This document shows positions 24,138 through 30,186 of a DNA stretch of 64,000 bases, in pieces. How positions within the stretch are numbered: the first letter of the stretch is position 1; every line of letters begins with the position of its first letter. Under the pieces are notes generated by a model, which ran no database searches, was not told where the DNA came from, and saw only the letters and a list, made by a program, of their open reading frames with translations. Location of the stretch: NCBI GenBank assembly GCA_947463325.1, contig CANHQT010000004.1, positions 48,810-112,809 of the forward strand. Direction: 5' to 3'. The translations under genes and the position numbers were made by a program. This DNA is from Sphingomonadaceae bacterium. GTDB lineage: Bacteria > Pseudomonadota > Alphaproteobacteria > Sphingomonadales > Sphingomonadaceae.

Positions 24138-24388
24138 CACACCTCCTGCCGGGCGGCGGCAAGCAGCGCCGCGACCTGATCCAACAGGGTGAGCCGTTCA
24201 CGCTTCAGCGATTCGAGCGCCTCATCCCCCAGCGGCTCGACCTCTGCTGCGCTGCGGTGAATGGTCCGGTTCACCTCATGATAGCGATCAGCCAGCTTGA
24301 TGAAGTGCGGATCCTCCAGCTTCAGCCGGTGGAGGAGCGCGGTGTCCGCGGGGAATTCCGCGGCGAGCTCATGCGGTGTGTGGGTCAT
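24137..24388 (-). CDS. YdcH / DUF465 family protein
   Basis: An 83-residue protein beginning MTHTPHELAAEFP, with HRLKLEDPHFIKLADRYHEVNRTIHR and a C-terminal heptad-like LKRERLTLLDQVAALL, which is the DUF465/YdcH pattern. The family forms short helical hairpins of unknown function. ATG 24388 has GGGAGAG upstream; the track start is 11 codons earlier. It is co-transcribed with the DksA/TraR-type gene. Confidence 0.88.
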   Translation of the reverse strand: MTHTPHELAAEFPADTALLHRLKLEDPHFIKLADRYHEVNRTIHRSAAEVEPLGDEALESLKRERLTLLDQVAALLAAARQEV

Positions 24389-24429
24389 AGTCTCTCCCTT
24401 CAGGCGACGACGATGCGACACTTATGGAC

Positions 24430-25320
24430 ACCGGCCCCGATGCGCGCATTGCGTTGAATCAAAAGCACTCGATGGGAGTTGGTTCCGCTCGGGAGAGAAA
24501 GAAGAGGGTTAACGCTGGGGCGCGGGGGGAAAGGGAGAAGGGTTCGCGCAGAGGCTGTTGGATTTGGGGATGCGCCGATCCTGTCGCGGGACTTCGGTTT
24601 GAAAAGCGAAGCGCGGTCGGCAGGAATCGGTGGCGCCCTGCCCGTTGGCGGCGCAATGCCGTTCGACCGGGGAGCCGGAGGGTCAGCCAGGGTGGCCCGA
24701 TCAGCGGCGGAGGCGGGCTGACACGCCCCCGCGCAAGCCGGAAGCGGGGCCGTGCGTGCCGGCGGCTGGCGAGGGGCAGGCCGGATAGGCCCGCCGCGTT
24801 GCGCCAGTCGCGCTTACCATTCACGCATGCGCCCTGCCGGCAGTGGCCGCTCTCAACGAACCAGCCCCGACGGTCAGCCATGACATAAGCGTTGTTGCCG
24901 GTCCTCGGCCCCGCGCCGTCCGCCGCGGGCCCTTCGCGAAGGGTGGCCGCGTGTCCGGTGCAAGGCCCTGGGTTCTTCCACCGACCCCATGCCATGGTGA
25001 CAGACGCCAGCGATGCACGCCCCCCAGGGAGGCCGGGCACCGCCCAATCCCCGCGATTTGGCGCACGAGAGGGAGTCCTCTGGCCAGAAAGCCACCCCAT
25101 CCACGCCGACCGCTATGCCGGCCCATCGGGGGTTGCCCAACTCACCAGCCCGCCAACCCGCCCGAAGTGCGATTCCGGACGGACGAGTGGGATTTACCTA
25201 ACCTATTTGGTTGTAGAAGTCAATCGCATAAGGCACGCCGATGCGACCCATCAGGAGCGAAGCACTGAGCAGTTAAGGCTGGCGAGACTTGTAAGTTACG
25301 CGGTAAAAAATAGATTGCGC
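24430..25320. other. Gene-free GC-rich stretch, unexplained
   Basis: About 890 bp between the DUF465 gene and the HEPN gene. Several long open frames overlap on both strands (for example 24459-25100 minus, 213 aa), but none has recognisable domains or an acceptable ribosome binding site, and they are rich in Arg/Pro/Gly as expected for shadow frames. There are inverted repeats: GTCAGCC/GGCTGAC around 24682-24722 and the palindrome CCCTTCGCGAAGGG at 24930-24943. The last 150 bp become AT-richer toward the HEPN gene. I looked for tmRNA, RNase P, SRP and 6S signatures and saw none. Confidence 0.4.
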
Positions 25321-25324
25321 GTCA

Positions 25325-25834
25325 CTATATGGACACTTGAGAGTTCCAATCCCGGATGAGCGAACCTAAACGTGCCATATCGCGATCTGATAATACGCCG
25401 CTGTGCATTATAACATTTCTAGAACGTTCAACGATCTCGAAGACACTTTTAACCCACTCGATATTGGGTAGATACGCCTCAAACTTGTCTAGATTGTTGG
25501 CGATTATATTTGCTAAATTTGGAAGCATAGTGAACTTGATTGGACTACCCCCTCGCTGGACATGCCAACGCACTTGCTGCTCTGCCTCCATTCGCTTCCG
25601 CGCATCCGATCTAATCCGCTCCGACACGCACTTGTCCCACCAATCCTCGCCCTCGGCCTCAAGCAGGACGCGTGTCACAAGCTCGGTATCTAGCACATCG
25701 ACGCCAAGAGTTTTGCGTAGAGCCTCCGCGTCAAAGCTTAAGTCATGGCGCTTTTTGCGCCCAGCACGGTCCAGTGCGGCGTCAGTCAGTTGCCCCTTGA
25801 AGACAAAGCTGTATGCTTCATCATACAAGCTCAT
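25325..25834 (-). CDS. HEPN-domain protein (Swt1-like), putative effector RNase
   Basis: A 169-residue protein whose C-terminal helices contain RNVIMHSG, an R-x4-H motif of HEPN ribonuclease-type domains, in a context (VKSVFEIVERSRNVIMHSGVL) close to the Swt1-like HEPN group. HEPN proteins act as RNases in toxin-antitoxin, abortive-infection and CRISPR effector systems. The start ATG overlaps the stop of the DUF5343 gene by 4 bp, so the two proteins are made together. Base composition is clearly more AT-rich than the neighbours and codon use differs, which supports transfer. The assignment is from motif only. Confidence 0.72.
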   Translation of the reverse strand: MSLYDEAYSFVFKGQLTDAALDRAGRKKRHDLSFDAEALRKTLGVDVLDTELVTRVLLEAEGEDWWDKCVSERIRSDARKRMEAEQQVRWHVQRGGSPIKFTMLPNLANIIANNLDKFEAYLPNIEWVKSVFEIVERSRNVIMHSGVLSDRDMARLGSLIRDWNSQVSI

Positions 25835-26478
25835 CCTAAGTGCTCGCGCAGGCTCCGGAATAGCGCATCGTAAACAGCGGGATCACGAGATTCCGGGAGA
25901 ATAATTTGAATATTATAGTGAAGACCGTTCACGGATAGACGAGGCAGCCTCTTTTTTCTTAATGGAATTTTATCGCTTTCTGCATCATCAAAAATATCTT
26001 CGTTGTCATCCTCTATATCAGAATCTATGTCATCTTCAGGAGCGCGCCTGACCTGCTCGAAGTCAGCCAGTTTGCACAAACTTGAGAACGTCATCGCCAT
26101 TTTGCCAATGACTGTTTCACCGTATTGGCCCTGGGTCAGGGTCTTCAATTTATTTGTTAAATCTACTCTACTTAACTTATGGGCATTGATATTTACATCG
26201 AACAGATCTTTATAGGCATATCGGATGCCTTCCGCCATAACTACTCGAGCTTGACCAGCATCTAAGTATGCAAAGTACCTAGACGTTGGCTTGCCTTGAT
26301 CATCGAGAAATCCAAGCGCCTTGAGAACTCCGATTATGAGGCGGTCAGGGGACGCTTTAAAATCTAGAGACTGAAGAAATCGAACAGTAAACCGCTCAGG
26401 CGCTTTAGCTTGTTGTATAGCCTCCAAAATCGCCGTCAAGTTCTTGGTGCTGGTCAAATATGCAGATGGGAGAGCCAT
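25831..26478 (-). CDS. DUF5343 domain protein
   Basis: A 215-residue protein matching the DUF5343 pattern: MALPSAYLTSTKNLTAILEAIQ, then LIIGVLKALGFLDDQGKPTSRYFAYLD, then the basic LTNKLKTLTQGQYGE. The N-terminal part resembles a winged-helix unit. After about residue 150 an acidic stretch (DSDIEDDNEDIFDDAES) leads to a last domain with RLSVNGLHYNIQIILPESRD. It is coupled by a 4-bp overlap to the HEPN gene and begins three bases after the stop of an nrdB-like fragment, whose last codons (GGCGGAT) provide the only Shine-Dalgarno-like sequence. AT-rich relative to the window. The function of DUF5343 is not known to me. Confidence 0.8.
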   Translation of the reverse strand: MALPSAYLTSTKNLTAILEAIQQAKAPERFTVRFLQSLDFKASPDRLIIGVLKALGFLDDQGKPTSRYFAYLDAGQARVVMAEGIRYAYKDLFDVNINAHKLSRVDLTNKLKTLTQGQYGETVIGKMAMTFSSLCKLADFEQVRRAPEDDIDSDIEDDNEDIFDDAESDKIPLRKKRLPRLSVNGLHYNIQIILPESRDPAVYDALFRSLREHLG

Positions 26479-26481
26479 ACT

Positions 26482-26583
26482 TTAATCCGCCGCAATCGCC
26501 GGAGCGCTGAACATGTCTTCGTCGCCATGATCGACGGCTACGGTTTCGCCTGCCTTAGCGCACTGGCGCTTATCGAAGTTGAC
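26482..26583 (-). pseudogene. Diverged copy of the nrdB 3' end
   Basis: About 100 bp encode FDKRQCAKAGETVAVDHGDEDMFSAPAIAAD and a stop; the real nrdB (26929-27981) ends in FDKRQRAKVGETVADNDGEEDMFSAAGIAAE and a stop. By my count 22 of 31 residues agree, and most DNA differences look silent or conservative. Similarity stops upstream of FDKRQ. The copy is in the same orientation, about 350 bp downstream of the nrdB stop, directly before DUF5343. It is best read as a remnant left by integration or recombination at the nrdB 3' end. Confidence 0.8.
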
Positions 26584-26781
26584 TCGGAAGATCGCCCTGG
26601 CACCACGGATTACGCCGCCCAATGGCGTGGCGAATTCAAACGGTTGATTGGACGAGGGCGCCATCAAGAAAACTCGGACAGTTGATGCTCAGAGGGCGAA
26701 TAGTGAATGAATGCAGTTTTGAGTCAAGTCGAGTTAACTATTTAGATAGCAGGATGTGTTGAGACAGGATTCAGTATAATA

Positions 26782-26796
26782 CATTGAAATTCAATG
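26782..26796. repeat. 15-bp perfect palindrome in AT-rich patch
   Basis: CATTGAA-A-TTCAATG lies in an AT-rich stretch between the nrdB fragment and nrdB. It may be a regulator site or a junction left from integration; no protein can be named. Confidence 0.4.
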
Positions 26797-26823
26797 ATTA
26801 AGCGGAGATCGAGCGCCCACCAC

Positions 26824-26862
26824 CCCGCGCAAACAAGTGCGGCGCGGGATTACCTCCCGCGC
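26824..26862 (-). terminator. Alternative hairpins downstream of nrdB
   Basis: Three 7-base blocks CCCGCGC, GCGCGGG and CCCGCGC (26824-30, 26842-48, 26856-62) allow two mutually exclusive hairpins with loops of 11 and 7 bases. They sit about 70 bp past the nrdB stop on its strand and may end or attenuate the nrdAB transcript. No U-run follows. Confidence 0.45.
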
Positions 26863-26928
26863 CGTCACTATGCGCTGTGCGCTGATGGGGAAGTGGGGGC
26901 GCGGTTGTGGGCGCGCCCTCGCTCCGGC

Positions 26929-27981
26929 TTACTCCGCCGCAATCCCTGCTGCGCTGAACATGTCTTCCTCGCCATCATTGTCGGCGACGGTTTCGCCCAC
27001 CTTGGCGCGCTGGCGCTTGTCGAAGCTGGACCAGACATCATTCCAATCCCCGCGGGTCGCGGCCTTTGAATATTCGGTCGCGCGGGTTTCGAAGAAGTTG
27101 GCGTGTTCCACACCGTTGAGCAGCGGGGCGAGCCAAGGCAGCGGGTGTTCATCGATCATGTAGATCGGCTGGAAGCCCAGCTGACCAAGGCGCCAGTCGG
27201 CGATGTAGCGGATGTAGCGCTTAATTTCCTTTGGCGTCATGCCGGGGACCGGGCCCTGTTCAAAGGCGAGGTCGATGAAGGCATCTTCCAGACGCACCGT
27301 TTTCTGGCAGCAATCCAGAATATCGTCGCGCACCGCGGGGGTCAGGCAATCGCGTTCCTTGACGAAGGCATGGAACAGGCGGGTGATCCCCTCACAATGC
27401 AGGCTTTCATCGCGGATCGACCAGCTGACGATCTGACCCATGCCCTTCATCTTGTTGAAGCGCGGGAAGTTCATCAGCATCGCGAAGGAGGCGAACAGCT
27501 GAAGCCCTTCGGTAAAGCCACCGAACATGGCGAGCGTGCGGGCGATATCCTCATCATTATCGACACCGAAGGTGTTCAGATAATCATGCTTGTCCTTCAT
27601 TTCCTTGTACTGAAGGAACATGCCATATTCGCTCTCGGGCATGCCGATGGTGTCGAGCAGGTGGCTGTAGGCCGCGATATGCACCGTCTCCATATTGGAG
27701 AAGGCGGTCAGCATCATCTTGACCTCAGTCGGCTTGAACACGCGGCCATAATGTTCGTGGTAGCAATTCTGCACCTCGACATCGGCCTGCGTGAAGAAGC
27801 GGAAAATCTGGGTCAACAGGTTACGCTCATGATCGGACAGCTTTTGCGCCCAATCGCGGCAATCCTCACCCAGCGGCACTTCTTCCGGCAGCCAGTGGAT
27901 CTGTTGCTGGCGCTTCCAGAAATCATAGGCCCAGGGATATTGGAACGGCTTATACTGGGCGCGGGCTTCGGTGAGGGACAT
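26929..27981 (-). CDS. nrdB: Ribonucleoside-diphosphate reductase subunit beta, class Ia
   Basis: Small subunit of aerobic ribonucleotide reductase, which houses the diferric-tyrosyl radical cofactor needed by NrdA. Metal-ligand regions are visible: EVQNCYHEHYGRVF and METVHIAAYSHLLDTIG early, and DESLHCEGITRLFH later, with the radical tyrosine in the YSHLL segment. The C-terminal tail EEDMFSAAGIAAE is the flexible peptide that docks on NrdA. It is 350 residues, of normal length. It follows nrdA by 77 bp on the same strand. A diverged copy of its 3' end lies downstream. Confidence 0.97.
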   Translation of the reverse strand: MSLTEARAQYKPFQYPWAYDFWKRQQQIHWLPEEVPLGEDCRDWAQKLSDHERNLLTQIFRFFTQADVEVQNCYHEHYGRVFKPTEVKMMLTAFSNMETVHIAAYSHLLDTIGMPESEYGMFLQYKEMKDKHDYLNTFGVDNDEDIARTLAMFGGFTEGLQLFASFAMLMNFPRFNKMKGMGQIVSWSIRDESLHCEGITRLFHAFVKERDCLTPAVRDDILDCCQKTVRLEDAFIDLAFEQGPVPGMTPKEIKRYIRYIADWRLGQLGFQPIYMIDEHPLPWLAPLLNGVEHANFFETRATEYSKAATRGDWNDVWSSFDKRQRAKVGETVADNDGEEDMFSAAGIAAE

Positions 27982-28058: not shown

Positions 28059-29999
28059 TTACTGGCAGGCCAAGCATTCATCATAGTCGGTGGTGGTCGC
28101 CAGCTCGAACTTTGGCGCATCCGGCGTGTTATCCGCCTCCACCCCACCGGCGAAGCCCGCGCGCTGCACGCTCTTTGACCGGAGATAATAGAGCGACTTG
28201 ATGCCCAATTCCCATGCGCGGAAATGCAGCATCATCAGATCCCACTTCTCCACATCCGCGGGGATGAAGAGATTGAGGCTGGTCGCCTGATCGATATAGG
28301 GCGTGCGGTCCGCCGCGAGCTCCAGCAGCCAGCGCTGGTCAATCTCGAAGCTGGTCTTGAACACGTCCTTTTCCTCTGTGGTGAGGAAATCGAGGTGAGC
28401 GACGCTGCCGCCCTTTTCGAGGATCGAGTTCCAGACGGAATCGCTGTTCTTCGCCTTTTCCACCAGCATCTTTTCAAGGTGCGGGTTCTTGATCGAGAAG
28501 CTGCCCGACAGCGTCTTGTGCGTATAGATGTTGGCCGGGATGGGTTCGATACAGGCCGAAGTGCCGCCAGCGATGATCGAGATCGACGCGGTCGGCGCGA
28601 TCGCCATCTTGCAGCTGAACCGTTCCATCACGCCCTGATCGGCAGCATCGGGGCACGGCCCGCGTTCCTGCGCGAGCAGCATCGAGGCGGCGTCCACCTG
28701 TTCGCGGATGTGGCGGAAGATCTTGAGGTTATAGGCCTTGGCCATCGCCCCTTCGAACGGCAGCTGCCGCGCCTGAAGGAAGCTGTGGAAGCCCATGACG
28801 CCGAGGCCGACGCTGCGTTCACGCATCGCGCTATATTTGGCGCGGGCCATCTCATCCGGTGCGCGGTCGATATAATCCTGCAGGACATTATCGAGGAAGC
28901 GCATCACATCCTCAATGAAGCCCTTTTCCTCATTCCACTCATCCCAGGTTTCGAGGTTGAGCGAGGACAGGCAGCACACCGCCGTCCGGTCATTACCGAG
29001 ATGGTCGCGGCCGGTGGGCAGGGTGATTTCCGAGCAGAGGTTGGAGGTCGAGACCTTCAAGCCCAGTTCGCGGTGATGCTTTGGCATCATCCGGTTCACC
29101 TGATCGATGAAGATGATGTAGGGTTCACCCGTCGCGAGGCGGGTTTCCACCAGCTTCTGGAACAGGCTGCGCGCATCGACAGTGCCGCGTTCCGAGCCAT
29201 CACGCGGGCTCTTGAGCTTGAATTCGGCGCCATCACGCACCGCTTCCATGAACTCGTCCGTGACGAGCACGCCATGGTGGAGGTTCAGCGCCTTGCGGTT
29301 GAAGTCACCCGAAGGTTTGCGGATTTCGAGGAACTCCTCAATCTCCGGATGGCTGATGTCGAGATAGCAGGCGGCCGAGCCGCGACGCAGCGAACCCTGC
29401 GAAATGGCAAGGGTAAGGCTGTCCATCACGCGCACGAAGGGGATGATGCCGCTGGTCTTGCCATTGAGGCCGACCGGCTCACCAATGCCGCGCACGCTGC
29501 CCCAATAGGTGCCGATGCCGCCACCGCGGCTGGCGAGCCAGACATTCTCGTTCCAGGTGCCGACAATCGCTTCGAGGCTGTCTTCGACCGAGTTGAGATA
29601 GCAGCTGATGGGCAGACCGCGACCGGTGCCGCCGTTCGACAGCACAGGCGTCGCCGGCATGAACCAGAGCTTTGAAATGGCATCATAGACGCGCTGGGCG
29701 TGCGCCTCATCATCGGCATAGGCCGCAGCGACGCGGGCGAAGAGATCCTGATAGGTTTCGCCGGGCAGCAGATAGCGATCGTTCAGCGTATCCTTGCCGA
29801 AATCGGTCAGCAGGACATCGCGCGAGGCATCGGTCACGACATTGAAGCGCCGCTCGGCAACGGTCTTCGAATCCACGGGCGCGGGCGCGGGCGCCGCAGC
29901 CTCCACCTTCGTAGACTCCTCAGTTACAGAGCGTTCTTCCAACTGGGTTGCCACCTTTTCACTCTCCTCGGCGCGCGTATCGCGAAAATCCATATCCAT
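28059..29999 (-). CDS. nrdA: Ribonucleoside-diphosphate reductase subunit alpha, class Ia
   Basis: Large catalytic subunit that reduces NDPs to dNDPs. Active-site landmarks are GLPISCYLNSV (first cysteine), the NLCSEITLPT / AVCCLSSLNLETW segment around the radical cysteine, and the C-terminal ECLACQ pair that is re-reduced by thioredoxin. The N-terminus has a variable acidic leader (EESTKVEAAAPAPAPVDS) and no obvious ATP-cone, so overall activity control by dATP at that site may be absent. The start is set at MDMDFRD (29999 or 29993); the track runs 39 codons further without family similarity. Tandem NrdR-like boxes lie about 190-235 bp upstream. Confidence 0.95.
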   Translation of the reverse strand: MDMDFRDTRAEESEKVATQLEERSVTEESTKVEAAAPAPAPVDSKTVAERRFNVVTDASRDVLLTDFGKDTLNDRYLLPGETYQDLFARVAAAYADDEAHAQRVYDAISKLWFMPATPVLSNGGTGRGLPISCYLNSVEDSLEAIVGTWNENVWLASRGGGIGTYWGSVRGIGEPVGLNGKTSGIIPFVRVMDSLTLAISQGSLRRGSAACYLDISHPEIEEFLEIRKPSGDFNRKALNLHHGVLVTDEFMEAVRDGAEFKLKSPRDGSERGTVDARSLFQKLVETRLATGEPYIIFIDQVNRMMPKHHRELGLKVSTSNLCSEITLPTGRDHLGNDRTAVCCLSSLNLETWDEWNEEKGFIEDVMRFLDNVLQDYIDRAPDEMARAKYSAMRERSVGLGVMGFHSFLQARQLPFEGAMAKAYNLKIFRHIREQVDAASMLLAQERGPCPDAADQGVMERFSCKMAIAPTASISIIAGGTSACIEPIPANIYTHKTLSGSFSIKNPHLEKMLVEKAKNSDSVWNSILEKGGSVAHLDFLTTEEKDVFKTSFEIDQRWLLELAADRTPYIDQATSLNLFIPADVEKWDLMMLHFRAWELGIKSLYYLRSKSVQRAGFAGGVEADNTPDAPKFELATTTDYDECLACQ

Positions 30000-30186
30000 G
30001 CCCCGCACAGTCTGACGGCAGCGGCGATGATTCGCCACCCCCTTTGTTCTTAATATGTTCGAATCAGGCATCCCCCCTGATCCTTGCCCAAGCCGGACGG
30101 TGAGGGAACGCGCCATAATGGCGGAGGAAACAGAGGTGGAAACCGCTTCCCCGTCAGTCGACTAGAGCAGCCAACTGCCATGCCTG

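Follow-up and report, generated by a model that had tools for sequence, protein, structure and literature searches.

The closing stretch of nrdB occurs twice in a 64,000-nucleotide piece of a Sphingomonadaceae genome (hereafter the window): once at the end of the intact gene, and once further downstream, immediately before a gene for a DUF5343 protein. How did a second gene end come to lie there, and what does it record about the DNA that it precedes? A first-pass annotation of the window took it as the edge of a foreign module integrated at the nrdB 3′ end. The features of the locus are given below in window coordinates; G016 is the closest relative in the genome collections used.

28059..30116, minus strand: nrdA, for the large chain of ribonucleotide reductase; anchors the locus upstream (Pfam PF02867/PF00317; 89% amino acid identity to G016)
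26929..27981, minus strand: nrdB, intact, 350 aa (Pfam PF00268; 94.6% amino acid identity to G016)
26929..27028, minus strand: tail 1, functional 3′ end of nrdB and reference copy of the repeat (repeat search, blastn)
26840..26864, minus strand: terminator-like hairpin behind nrdB, 10 pairs, 9 of them G-C (consensus scan; weak)
26584..26928, minus strand: spacer of 345 bp between the tails (GC profile, homology searches)
26482..26664, minus strand: open frame of 60 codons ending in tail 2, 27 unrelated and 33 nrdB-like (sequence; no Pfam match)
26482..26581, minus strand: tail 2, the second nrdB 3′ end, probably displaced and decayed, with TAA at 26482-26484 (repeat, conservation, polarity of changes)
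25831..26478, minus strand: DUF5343 protein, 215 aa, PDC-M34A (PF17278, E = 2e-41; PADLOC PDC-M34A, E = 2e-74)
25325..25834, minus strand: HEPN (Swt1-like) protein, 169 aa, PDC-M34B (PF18731, E = 4e-6; PADLOC PDC-M34B, E = 2e-54)

The repeated gene end and the module behind it

The repeat search of the window gave a gap-free direct repeat of 100 nt (26482-26581 and 26929-27028) with 84% identity, the two copies being offset by 447 bp from start to start. When the nrdB end was compared with the 64-kb window by blastn, 97 nt matched at 84.5% (E = 1e-22), and the next match had an E value of only 0.011. Both tails lie on the minus strand and each is closed by TAA; their translations end in NFDKRQCAKAGETVAVDHGDEDMFSAPAIAAD and SFDKRQRAKVGETVADNDGEEDMFSAAGIAAE, with 22 of 32 residues identical over 33 codons (stop included). 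The whole genome (G000, 2.29 Mb) holds these two nrdB ends only. The first-pass annotation had described the repetition in the same orientation, which was borne out, and its count of 22 of 31 identical codons is close to ours. Its boundary at 26583 was about right, but alignable similarity reached only 26581, near codon 318 of nrdB. The stop of tail 2 indeed lies three bases before DUF5343 (TAA, AGT, then the start). GCGGCGGATTAAAGTATG can fairly be read, as that annotation did, as the only ribosome-binding-like sequence of DUF5343, supplied by this copy, although its Shine-Dalgarno match is a weak GGA. An assembly artefact is an unlikely source of tail 2, since the copies are 16% diverged.

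The spacer showed low GC from about 26584 to 26800 (0.45–0.50) and host-like GC from about 26800 to 26928 (0.67). Tail 2 fronts the module as first described, but it is not the outer edge of the atypical DNA, because the low-GC part of the spacer lies beyond it. No homologue of the 345 bp was found in the organism's own genome, the genus, the other nrdB loci or plasmids. Its six-frame peptides gave nothing convincing against the proteins collected behind nrdB in relatives, and no trace of an integrase or recombinase. The spacer may be a remnant of other cargo. Terminator-like hairpins numbered three, against 2.2 expected in shuffles.

Behind tail 2, the DUF5343 gene (A) adjoins the HEPN gene (B) on the same strand, the latter overlapping the DUF5343 stop by 4 nt and encoding the RX4H HEPN motif as RNVIMH. 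Both PADLOC models of PDC-M34 were matched by these neighbours at the E values given above, with no clear difference from that system, which is itself a candidate only. The pair is thus a candidate defence system of the PDC-M34 type, in which, to judge from the families, a HEPN ribonuclease effector probably works under DUF5343 control. DUF5343 was rare, with hits in 6 of 80 genus genomes (E ≤ 0.001) and 6 of 401 family genomes (E ≤ 1e-10), and in several of these the next gene was HEPN-like (RNFIAH, RNFVAH). No DUF5343 relatives were found on plasmids, phages or viral contigs, and our literature search found no mention of PDC-M34. Pfam detected DUF5343 and HEPN only in the module, and no integrase.

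Past the module, the window is very GC-rich between 24459 and 25180 (about 0.6–0.76). An Rfam search of this part gave no RNA family, and short pieces of it resemble DNA downstream of the cargo slot behind nrdB in many Sphingopyxis genomes.

Origin and age of the second tail

The best match of tail 2 was the nrdB end of its own genome, at 109 bits; the next best in the genus (G111) reached 55 bits. A foreign functional tail is therefore ruled out as its source, and the expectation that one of the tails would match a different lineage failed for both. The two tails also share the linker length and the GETVA residues, whereas linkers vary greatly in other species.

With G016 as outgroup, ten differences fell on the tail 2 branch and three on the tail 1 branch, while three could not be polarised (10:3, two-sided binomial about 0.09). 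Tail 2 has changed AGIAAE to PAIAAD, so that it is altered at positions −7, −6 and −2 (A, G and E), which are kept in 134, 136 and 145 of 145 nrdB genes, respectively. These few conserved residues and the polarity count suggest that tail 2 is likely a decaying relic under relaxed constraint. Functional nrdB tails span the proportion of amino-acid-changing differences seen between the two tails, with 20% of pairs reaching it; dN/dS was set aside as a measure of decay, since functional pairs span the same range.

The altered residues also bear on a different reading, in which tail 2 belongs to a functional short gene (26482-26664) that mimics the NrdA-binding peptide, or to a leader that couples translation to DUF5343. 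The C-terminus of NrdB binds NrdA, and the 60-codon frame is open and ends 3 nt before DUF5343. However, it is the near-invariant C-terminal residues that have changed, and the frame has no conserved homologue, no good ribosome site and no Pfam match. It is probably not a gene, and we consider a function of this kind highly improbable.

The pS value between the tails was 0.30, compared with a pS of 0.37 and a dS of 0.51 for the nrdB body against G016. The duplication is roughly as old as the G016 split, an estimate with a large error on 99 bases. Between our genome and G016 the nrdB tail was slightly more diverged than expected (identity 0.73, under the 5% quantile of 0.74, at a body identity of 0.917), and against G111 it was slightly less diverged than expected from the body. 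A mosaic break in nrdB was considered; so short and gapped a linker does not allow it to be claimed firmly.

Would a decayed tandem duplication of nrdB account for the pair? In such a history the whole gene or its 3′ part was duplicated in this lineage, the second copy was mostly deleted, and the module arrived independently. The tails are each other's best match, equal in length and gap-free, and similar in age to the G016 split or younger, all of which a duplication would give. But the DNA after tail 1 (GCCGGAGCG..) was not copied after tail 2 (AGTATGGCT..), there is no repeat between the two regions, and the outcome is no plain tandem copy; the old tandem duplication named in the first-pass annotation as the counter-case to its own reading was accordingly not what we found. 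No nrdB body is left before codon 318 either, and a duplication does not account for the module start lying exactly 3 nt past the copied stop, a position that cargo also takes at true docking genes elsewhere. We regard this history as unlikely.

The variable slot behind nrdB in sphingomonads

About 146 sphingomonad loci were collected, each with nrdB and the DNA that follows it. Most of them showed a GC dip directly behind nrdB: a 250-bp bin below 50% GC occurred within 1.5 kb of the gene in 78 of 142 loci, compared with 7 of 123 at 3–4.5 kb. The variable DNA that the first-pass annotation proposed to look for behind nrdB in sphingomonads is thus present. Low-GC open reading frames followed nrdB in 97 of 146 loci, and the 160 frames formed 119 clusters; these are mechanical frames from related genomes, and the counts are not independent events. 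The flank is constant and the cargo of different genomes is non-homologous; in the relatives, foreign, low-GC DNA has a hotspot at this place.

The cargo was short (about 0.7–2.5 kb) and unlike between genomes, and many restriction, abortive-infection and toxin-antitoxin families were found in it. It included BglII and NaeI endonucleases, MT-A70, C5 and other DNA methylases, as well as Panacea/SocA, AAA_21/AbiEii, Abi_alpha, putAbiC, AIPR, BrnT, FRG, NACHT and ThsB-TIR. For 131 hotspot proteins, no integrase was found among the matches listed (top 25 families per library). A literature search gave no report of a defence slot behind nrdB, most subscription papers lying outside its reach.

An MT-A70 methylase recurred beside a BglII-type endonuclease in about six genomes of several genera (L161:2098-3395, L078, L092, L128, L211 and others). 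A family of about 240 aa without a Pfam match (SRSPRFPSYPLNEAVAYAQRIYEGVHRS...) was seen at L156:5190-5912 and in L121, L102, L144, L180 and L178; it is mostly convergent to nrdB, ends 1–88 nt from the nrdB stop in four of the six genomes, and is a candidate for an unknown defence gene. In G114, a gene for 374 aa with 41% GC (L157:14296-15420) starts 6 nt past the nrdB stop and had no Pfam, NCBIfam or PADLOC match.

The edge at which cargo begins was sharp. In 66 collected loci (L171, L173, L179, L192 and other Sphingopyxis), a gene of about 76 codons (MTEKKKQKLLILSQPQRATLEGL...GGFSV) lies about 120–370 bp behind nrdB; it is weakly winged-helix-like, below cut-off. Conservation stops at its stop codon, and different cargo comes next in nearly every genome. 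Among 58 Sphingopyxis genomes, pairwise identity dropped from 0.98 to 0.26 at the small-gene stop: it was 0.98 just upstream, 0.77 over the stop codon itself, 0.28 across the three bases that follow and about 0.25 beyond. Third positions of the small gene were 79% identical between genomes, a level that would keep a homologous spacer alignable, so the cargo after it is not homologous. The small gene was also considered as an unusually conserved homology arm and rejected, its third positions being less conserved than those of nrdB (0.79 and 0.85).

At its far end the slot has no fixed border, and distal junctions are scattered. In L218, L212, L165 and L160, shared DNA resumes within 30–140 bp, which gives these loci an empty or nearly empty look. 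A palindromic repeat (CCGGATCAAGTCCGG-like) is found close to many distal junctions, and other junctions lie hundreds of bases further. A palindrome of the GGATGCCGGATCAAGTCCGGCATGACG type stands at position 70–170 after the small gene in L218, and at or near many distal junctions; such palindromes may favour illegitimate recombination.

The small gene was not found in the window, G016 or G114, and in the latter two the cargo abuts the nrdB stop itself. The small gene is missing from 79 loci; in 11 of these, the first low-GC frame began no more than 20 nt past the nrdB stop, and 7 more had a convergent low-GC frame ending within 100 nt of it. A cargo start 0–20 nt from the stop of whichever gene lies upstream is frequent in the slot. 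L113 (Sphingomonas sp. UNC305MFCol5.2) carries a DUF5343 gene directly behind nrdB, followed by a gene with the HEPN motif RNECAH. Its DUF5343 protein matches PDC-M34A (E = 1e-39), the second protein gave no family match, and the longest DUF5343 frame begins 33 nt past the nrdB stop, a later ATG being likelier. Modules of the DUF5343/HEPN type thus occur in the slot in two genera. Because cargo abuts the nrdB stop in the same way in L113, G114 and others, the arrangement tail 2-TAA-AGT-ATG looks like an ordinary docked state.

This comparison also weighs on site-specific integration. The first-pass annotation was right that nrdB is followed by a variable spot and that tail 2 marks the nrdB-side start of DUF5343/HEPN, but site-specific integration was not supported. 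The third copy that it proposed to look for at the far border was absent near 24300-25330 and from the rest of the genome, and no att repeats were found. A standard att-flanked island is not what stands here, because its copies would flank DUF5343/HEPN on both sides and there is no far copy. In a modified version, an integrative element would have attached at the nrdB 3′ end, brought in tail 1, displaced the original end (tail 2) and left the 345 bp as its remnant, with DUF5343/HEPN as an older neighbour. Such an element fits the geometry, in which one side has a restored gene end and the other the displaced original, and the 345 bp do include atypical DNA. Against it, the 345 bp hold no integrase or recombinase trace in their six-frame peptides, and no second tail occurred within 1.5–5 kb of nrdB in about 127 relatives. 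The small-gene end, a docking site itself, had no distal repeat in the 58 Sphingopyxis loci, and neither displaced nrdB ends nor displaced small-gene ends were found in other strains, though variable DNA after nrdB is common. Moreover, att repeats are usually shorter, and 16% divergence implies great age. The chance that an integrative element left this repeat appears small to us.

Probable displacement of the nrdB end by cargo exchange

What was found is a likely relic of a gene end downstream of an intact nrdB, still joined to DUF5343. Our preferred explanation, which we hold to be probable, is that cargo turnover at a variable slot for defence genes behind nrdB displaced an nrdB 3′ end and left it as a scar, tail 2. 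A PDC-M34-like module would once have been docked on the nrdB stop, as tail 2-TAA-AGT-ATG still suggests. There it would have drawn on nrdB transcription, with translation possibly starting from the GGAG within the last nrdB codons (GCGGCGGAGTAA). A later recombination, with homology in nrdA/nrdB at one junction and none at the other (homology-facilitated illegitimate recombination), would have produced the order nrdB-tail 1-new DNA-tail 2-old cargo, so that a second nrdB end and 345 bp now lie between nrdB and the module. One junction would fall inside the nrdB end, where alignable similarity begins at 26581. The mirror event, with tail 2 and the module as the incoming piece, is equally possible. 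Tail 2 would then have lost its function and decayed, remaining as the 5′ leader of the module. Neither an intermediate nor an empty state was found among close relatives in the collections; the nearest, G016 (nrdB body dS as above), carries other cargo. No other genome has such a scar, hence the event is rare or unique.

Experiments have demonstrated homology-facilitated illegitimate recombination (PMC3240628), and it has been proposed to explain displaced relics in T6SS and Rhs loci (PMC5361080). The orphan 3′ ends with immunity genes of the Rhs/T6SS loci resemble our locus in the anchor of upstream homology, in the old 3′ part pushed downstream as a relic, and in having neither integration site nor integrase (PMC5361080). 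There the end comes from a toxin gene, whereas here it comes from the housekeeping gene nrdB and the cargo is a candidate phage defence. Defence hotspots between core genes, such as E. coli hotspot #37 (PMC10121019), likewise show one place with high occupancy, many systems and often no recognisable mobile element. Unlike that hotspot, the nrdB slot holds cargo of only the short length given above, cut exactly at the upstream stop codon, in sphingomonad hosts. Islands at gene 3′ ends with att repeats share the second gene-end copy flanking foreign DNA; unlike them, our locus has no integrase and no far-border copy, and its repeat is old and unique to this genome.

A further-reaching idea is that sphingomonads use the slot behind nrdB specifically for exchanging single defence systems, with cargo always joined at the upstream stop codon through a mechanism, perhaps an unknown one, that requires no integrase, and with the duplicated tail as the footprint of one exchange. 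We offer this speculatively and rather doubt it. If it were true, defence genes would be tied to ribonucleotide reductase expression.

Defence genes turn over quickly, and the movement of small defence systems without mobility genes is poorly understood. The nrdAB slot is precise and taxonomically broad, with short, mostly single-system cargo, and one genome with a probable exchange scar may make the mechanism readable from its sequence. The scar on its own is a modest finding, and the defence slot to which it led is the more interesting one; genes without a family that lie behind nrdB in sphingomonads are good candidates for new defence systems.
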